NCBI GenBank assembly: GCA_016200385.1
Contig: JACQEV010000136.1
Coordinates: forward strand, 1 to 15,271
Direction: 5' to 3'
Length of the DNA stretch: 15,271 nt
Origin: Candidatus Methylomirabilota bacterium
GTDB taxonomy: Bacteria > Methylomirabilota > Methylomirabilia > Methylomirabilales > Methylomirabilaceae
Shown here: piece by piece, positions 5,577 through 6,698 of the stretch
Numbering within the stretch: the stretch's first letter is position 1
How the letters are laid out: every line of letters begins with the position of its first letter
Program-made: the position numbers and the translations under genes
The notes under the pieces: model-generated
What the model was told of the DNA's origin: nothing
What the model saw: the letters and a program-made list of their open reading frames with translations, nothing else
The model's database searches: none

Positions 5577-6698
5577 TTAGCGAGAGGCAGGTTCGAGGGG
5601 GCGGATCGAGAGGCGTTCGCTGTTCCTGGAATCCCGGTAGATGAAGCGACCGTCACCTTGCTCCGCCTGTGCTATCGCTTCTTGGATGATATCATGGTGG
5701 GGGGAGAGAGAACAAACAGGATCGGCGACCGCGGCGTCACCGGCCAGCATGAACGCCTGGCAACGGCAGCCACCGAAGTCGATCGTCTTCATGGGGCAGC
5801 TTTTGCAGGGCTCCTGCATCCAGCTCTCGCCGCGGAAGGCATTGAGGCCCTTTGACTCCGCCCAGATCGTGGTCAGAGACTGGTCGCGGACGCTGTCGAA
5901 GTGAAGTCCGGGGATCACATGGGCCGCATGGCAAGGCAGCACCTCGCCGGTGGGGGTGATAACCATATAGCTTCTCGCCCAGCCGCCCATACAGGGTTTT
6001 GGATGCTCCGAATAATAGTTGGCCTTGACGTAGGCGATCTCCATCGTGCCCTGGTACCGCGGTCGCGCCTCGAAGACCACCGCCTCTGCCTGGTCGAGCT
6101 GAGCCCGCGTCGGCATCAGCGCGTTTCGATTCTTCTCCGCCCAGGCATGGTACTGCGTGTTGGCGAGCTCCAGTCGCTGGGCTCCCAGCTCGGCCGCCTG
6201 GGTGATCAGCGCCGGGACATGATCGATGTTCATCCGGTGCATGACCACGTTGATGGTCAGCGACAACCCGAGCTTCTTGATCAGTGGGGCGATCTCGAGC
6301 TTCTTGTCGTAGGACCGGATCCCGGCGACCAGTTCGGCCGTCCTGCGGTCGGTGTCCTGAATGCTCAACTGGATATGATCGAGCCCGCAGTCCCGGAACT
6401 GGCGCAGCATCTCCTCGTTCAGCAGGGTCCCGCCGGTGATCAGGTTCGTATACAGGTCGCGCGAGTGAGCATGCCGGATCAGCTCGGGCAGGTCCTTACG
6501 GACCACCGGCTCGCCCCCCGACAAGTGGAGCTGGACCACGCCAAGGTCTGCGGCCTCCGAAAACGTCCTGACCCATTGCTCGGTGCTGAGCTAGTTGCGC
6601 ATCTCGTGGAAGTTCACCGGATTCGAACAGTACAGACACTTCAGCGGGCATTTGTAGGTCAGCTCGGCGACCAGCGTGTACGGTCTTGGGGCTCCCAT
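5577..6698 (-). pseudogene. pqqE: pqqE, PqqA peptide cyclase (radical SAM/SPASM), interrupted by in-frame TAG at codon 36
   Basis: PqqE is the radical SAM enzyme that links Glu and Tyr side chains in the PqqA peptide, the first step of PQQ synthesis. From ATG 6698, directly after the pqqD stop, the frame encodes 373 codons, a normal length. The radical-SAM cluster motif is at Cys17, Cys21 and Cys24 (TYKCPLKCLYCSNP), and HLSGGEP follows near 58-64. The SPASM ligands Cys236, 256, 298, 301, 311, 313, 329 and Asp307 are all present. The only defect is TAG at 6591-6593 (codon 36, NFHEMRN-stop-LSTEQW), where relatives usually carry Glu, so GAG to TAG is the likely change. Restart at GTG 6539 would drop the cluster cysteines and be inactive. 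Sequencing error, a very recent null mutation, or amber readthrough all remain possible. Confidence 0.88.

Follow-up and report, generated by a model that had tools for sequence, protein, structure and literature searches.

An isolated in-frame TAG codon in pqqE of a Candidatus Methylomirabilota metagenome assembly is probably a base-level error

A single amber codon interrupts pqqE in the pqq operon of a Candidatus Methylomirabilota bacterium (GCA_016200385.1, contig JACQEV010000136.1). PqqE is the PqqA peptide cyclase, which links Glu to Tyr within its peptide substrate, and the question raised by this locus is whether the codon is a base error, a recent null mutation or a site at which UAG is read as sense. 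The window, by which we mean the whole stretch of 15,271 nucleotides analysed here, is contig 304 (C304) of an assembly (G000) of 2.21 Mb in 411 contigs that is 81% complete. A search of genome contigs returned Candidatus Methylomirabilis oxygeniifera (L039) and Candidatus Methylomirabilota (L042) as the nearest relatives, and comparisons within the genus were carried out on 15 genomes, including G000.

Window bases 6591-6593 read CTA on the forward strand, that is, TAG on the minus strand (6593-6591), and translation places this triplet in frame (6591..6593, minus strand) as codon 36 of a pqqE frame of 373 codons and a terminator (5577..6698, minus strand), which reads MGAPRP...NFHEMRN-stop-LSTEQW...EPASR. 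The TAG is the sole break that we found in a frame which is otherwise conserved. Translated with X at the stop, pqqE scores 509.8 bits against the PqqE model TIGR02109 (cut-off 381.35) over residues 5-349, and it matches the Pfam domains Radical_SAM (PF04055, 13-165) and SPASM (PF13186, 240-302); by family score and by both domains it is thus a PqqE, and what it lacks is an uninterrupted frame. In these respects, and in having pqqA-D adjoining, it resembles the family and its solved chain 6c8v_A, which has Glu in the column where the window gene has the stop. The longest ORF left 3' of the TAG (5577..6539, minus strand) encodes 320 aa from a GTG start at 6539 and is without Cys17, Cys21 and Cys24.

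The neighbouring genes lie on the same strand. pqqD (6699..7016, its start site being our choice), pqqC (7004..7741) and pqqB (7763..8686) are all open and score over their NCBIfam cut-offs, and pqqA (8806..8883), which encodes a peptide of 25 aa, MAWVKPEFKEVRMDAEINSYILVLE, was recognised by eye, with no family model. The initial annotation had placed the TAG at codon 36 of a 373-codon pqqE, had held that a restart past it would lose the cluster cysteines and had described pqqA, B, C and D as intact; the base reading, the frames and, for pqqB, C and D, the family matches bear it out on these points. The terminator of pqqD is itself a TAG, immediately 5' of the pqqE ATG. No RNA genes were found in the window, either by Rfam at gathering scores or by ARAGORN. 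An ORF for a ParE-type toxin (PF05016) is present at window positions 2745-3008.

Comparison with close relatives gave Glu, the residue expected at codon 36. The pqq operons of two congeners, G011 (L012) and G006 (L060), match the window collinearly at the DNA level with 79-80% identity; unlike the window, both have GAG at codon 36, although the G006 copy of pqqE is cut by a contig end. The window protein was also aligned with 49 close homologues, 62-91% identical to it, out of the 120 among the matches listed, and every one of the 49 has Glu at position 36. Of 21 loci checked at codon 36, 14 contain the motif; without the window, Glu is present in 10 of 13, two genomes apparently being counted twice among these ten, and Val, Gly or Arg in the other three. 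Because these more distant PqqE proteins carry other residues, Glu36 appears to be typical but, by this evidence, not indispensable. The best match in the protein search is 91% identical, and the species of the window itself might be concealed within clusters formed at 90%; the search is therefore silent on the frequency of the TAG in the population.

Outside the TAG, pqqE looks like a working gene under purifying selection, as judged from sequence divergence. Against G011 it has dN 0.075, dS 0.672 and dN/dS 0.11, and its neighbours have dN/dS of 0.10 (pqqC), 0.09 (pqqB, against L039) and 0.22 (pqqD); against G006, dN/dS is 0.02 over 86 codons, with 96.6% amino acid identity over 87 residues. 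In this analysis L039 gave the same values as L012 (G011), and L042 the same as L060 (G006). Among the 50 rows of the alignment, the window protein has three private residues (mean of the other 49, 7.9) and departs from one otherwise invariant column (mean of the others, 0.5). A long-standing pseudogene was rejected on the ordinary dN/dS and private-residue counts, and any inactivation would therefore be recent.

The initial annotation had proposed that an intact second pqqE would make this copy a simple pseudogene. We found no such copy in the 81%-complete assembly: one of nine family matches is over the cut-off, there is one DNA match, and the possibility of a second copy was accordingly rejected. 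One of the matches under the cut-off is a radical-SAM ORF (L124, G000:C75, 654-2663; 80 bits to PqqE), which is followed by an ORF in the same frame with weak similarity to PQQ dehydrogenases.

We surveyed 81 of the 411 contigs (80 and that of the window; 445,223 bases) for other lone stops, using homology to 800 kb of G005, by which 112 kb of G000 was covered, and coding potential. A strict coding-potential scan (5 rows) missed the pqqE TAG and was replaced by loosened scans of 64 and 52 rows, most of which fall at the end of a gene, at the beginning of the one that follows or in an antisense frame; whether a row lies within a gene was judged by eye, and stops at L151:2608, L113:3441, L114:10597, L092:8809 and L164:4330 were left uncalled. 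That at L092:8809 is a TGA in a histone-deacetylase-like frame, just where the matched stretch begins; selenocysteine, a pseudogene or a base error could account for it. The homology survey returned 16 rows on G000 DNA, of which L101:3254, L105:2228 and the selenocysteine-like L099:1321 were taken as sense-frame and the other 13 as antisense frames or gene edges, including the TAG rows L104:3206, L145:9581, L138:184 and L107:415. The reverse survey, with G000 ORFs on G005 DNA (134 kb covered), returned six rows, comprising one sense-frame selenocysteine-like thioredoxin and five antisense frames or edges.

Besides that of pqqE, three clear in-gene TAGs were found, in genes for a transketolase (C3:2259), a response regulator (C320:2228) and topA (C212:77); in an acyl-CoA dehydrogenase gene (C316:3254), a TGA adjoins a frame change. 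Pfam domain matches continue past the transketolase stop, which is present in one of the 15 genus genomes (G000) and in none of the matching genes of the 14 relatives, and the site is Gln in the 12 of these 14 that were matched by the search pattern. In the response regulator, the receiver-domain match spans the stop. Given the codons used, the stops produced by random single substitutions would be 55% TAG, 24% TAA and 21% TGA, and the TAG-rich mix observed fits random substitution. As a rough estimate, if 3.2% of substitutions create a stop, five stops correspond to about 160 substitutions in 445 kb.

The assembly is self-contradictory at the base level, once exactly at an in-frame TAG. The TAG-bearing start of topA lies at the beginning of C212, and C182 ends with the same stretch and no stop; the two end overlaps agree at 138 of 144 bases. 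At the stop, C182 and 14 of 14 relatives have TAT, and at a second difference they have ATG where C212 has GTG. The remaining four of the six are synonymous changes, and at one, GCC/GCT, the copy at variance with 14 of 14 relatives is C182; strain mixture therefore probably contributes to the topA overlap, a point against base error. In the overlap of a second pair of contig ends, C17 and C403, the 273 aligned columns include 10 base differences and a gap of 9 bases.

A like scan was run as a control on 800 kb of G005 (one contig of 2,752,854 bases), with the model retrained on G005 and an extra filter that demanded a downstream score of 1 or more; the rows for pqqE, transketolase and topA clear this threshold too. 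None of its 61 rows, read by eye, is an in-gene TAG. Four rows are selenocysteine-like TGAs (L199:17236, L167:9985, L191:7555 and L193:18926), and a fifth, L186:4212, is a TGA that interrupts a Uma2-like gene; these names were assigned by eye.

We consider that the pqqE TAG is probably a base-level error of this fragmentary metagenome assembly. Of the three readings left by the initial annotation (base error, recent null mutation, suppression) this is the best supported, because isolated in-frame stops occur in other conserved genes and, for one of these, a duplicate of the stretch has no stop; the null mutation stays in contention, and suppression has little in its favour. From the sequences compared, we infer that the pqqE stop may share the cause of the other lone stops. 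Against a base error, the pqqE TAG lies in the middle of a 15-kb contig and not at a contig end, and its surroundings are otherwise normal. The assembly also holds a second, split transketolase-like pair (G000:C137:1849-3410), with N and C halves in separate frames, that are 35 and 38% identical to the main transketolase. Given this pair, the main transketolase may truly have been lost, which would count against base error.

Lone TAGs in more than one conserved gene would also be expected if UAG were read through, or suppressed by a tRNA, so that some full-length PqqE is made, and the Val, Gly or Arg found in distant PqqE implies that the inserted residue need not be Glu. Avoidance of TAG as a terminator defines reassignment, and loss of RF1 is usual in it. 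TAG does not look reassigned in this genome: of the 191 ORFs in the assembly with 250 codons or more, it terminates 60 (98 of 372 in the G005 pieces), it also terminates pqqD, and the RF1 gene prfA is intact (530.5 bits, no internal stop). The residues replaced at the lone TAGs differ (Glu, Gln and Tyr), as random change predicts, and the stretch that holds the topA stop occurs a second time without it. The RNA 3' of the pqqE TAG has an ordinary fold energy relative to shuffled sequences (z -0.11 for 126 nt). A search for an amber suppressor tRNA or pylS, which had been suggested at the outset, came back empty in the 81%-complete assembly: no CTA (UAG-reading) anticodon is present among the 14 tRNAs found, and the best PylS match has 21.6 bits (cut-off 178.15). 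The tRNA result is weak because 14 tRNAs are far below bacterial need, and a suppressor tRNA could thus be missing from the assembly. On balance, we regard readthrough or suppression at this codon as highly improbable. The more specific scenario of a natural amber suppressor tRNA encoded in the missing part of the assembly, with UAG serving as both terminator and sense codon and ambers accumulating in genes such as pqqE and transketolase, seems a shade more doubtful still.

Recoding of UAG to selenocysteine, by a CUA tRNA-Sec and a SECIS element, or to pyrrolysine, was considered since UAG-encoded selenocysteine exists elsewhere and since the window itself carries selB, for the selenocysteine elongation factor (13063..14976, forward strand, family match). 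One report describes AhpC of Blastococcus as having a UAG selenocysteine site, a CUA tRNA-Sec and a bSECIS (PMC5330540); that case and ours are alike in an in-frame UAG within a genome that has selenocysteine machinery, but of the features described there, a selenocysteine site, a CUA tRNA-Sec and a bSECIS, none was found for the window pqqE. We found no link between the window selB and the pqqE TAG. The site is Glu, not Cys, in the 49 close homologues; no tRNA-Sec is over the cut-off in the incomplete assembly, six weaker matches falling on Ser and Leu tRNAs; and neither the PylS score nor the RNA fold, whose energy gave no hairpin signal, favours recoding. The assembly probably uses UGA for selenocysteine, as TGA occurs at Cys-like sites in two thioredoxin-like frames, one PCYCGC-domain frame and one peroxiredoxin-like frame (L103:1044, L146:4271, L107:706 and L099:1321, the peroxiredoxin-like frame being outside the Pfam scan), all four of which are likely UGA selenoproteins; such use of UGA has no bearing on a TAG at a Glu site. 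Similar thioredoxin-like and PCYCGC TGA cases are present in G005. Selenocysteine or pyrrolysine at codon 36 is thus scarcely credible, and recoding and suppression taken together are very unlikely.

A more serious rival is a genuine, very recent nonsense mutation, under which PQQ synthesis would have disappeared from this lineage only lately and the organism would do without PQQ or take it up from its neighbours. It had been argued that a dead pqqE would make the whole pathway useless; this is true, but it is less surprising than was supposed, since 12 of the 15 genus genomes have no pqqC over the cut-off, nine of these being given as 99-100% complete. pqqC is over the cut-off in only three (G000, G006 and G011), and the same three alone give long DNA matches to the pqq portion of the query. 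All 12 genomes without pqqC keep a PQQ-type alcohol dehydrogenase over the cut-off. This combination of absent pqqC and retained dehydrogenase seems to characterise most of the genus; a published account describes M. oxyfera as being without PQQ synthesis genes (PMC6094997). PQQ synthesis looks dispensable in the genus, and a fresh pqqE knock-out would therefore be unremarkable. Across the genus, 13 of the 15 genomes have a PQQ-type alcohol dehydrogenase over the cut-off, the exceptions being G000 and G011, both about 80% complete; its absence from G000 agrees with a recent loss, but may also reflect the 81% completeness of the assembly. Against such a loss, pqqE shows no sign of decay in its dN/dS or its private residues, and a null mutation in pqqE leaves the stops in transketolase and topA unexplained. 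The literature searched yielded no account of a disrupted pqqE in the genus. A recent null mutation is plausible, in our view, but less likely than a base error.

If, as we favour, the TAG is a base-level error, the organism's pqqE would most likely have an ordinary sense codon at position 36 and would yield a normal PqqE. Before recoding is invoked for a lone in-frame stop in a gene from a metagenome-assembled genome, the stop should be compared with the rate of stops that the assembly shows in its other conserved genes. Were the stop real, it would be a loss of PQQ synthesis caught in the act, in a genus that is mostly without this synthesis yet keeps PQQ-type alcohol dehydrogenases.
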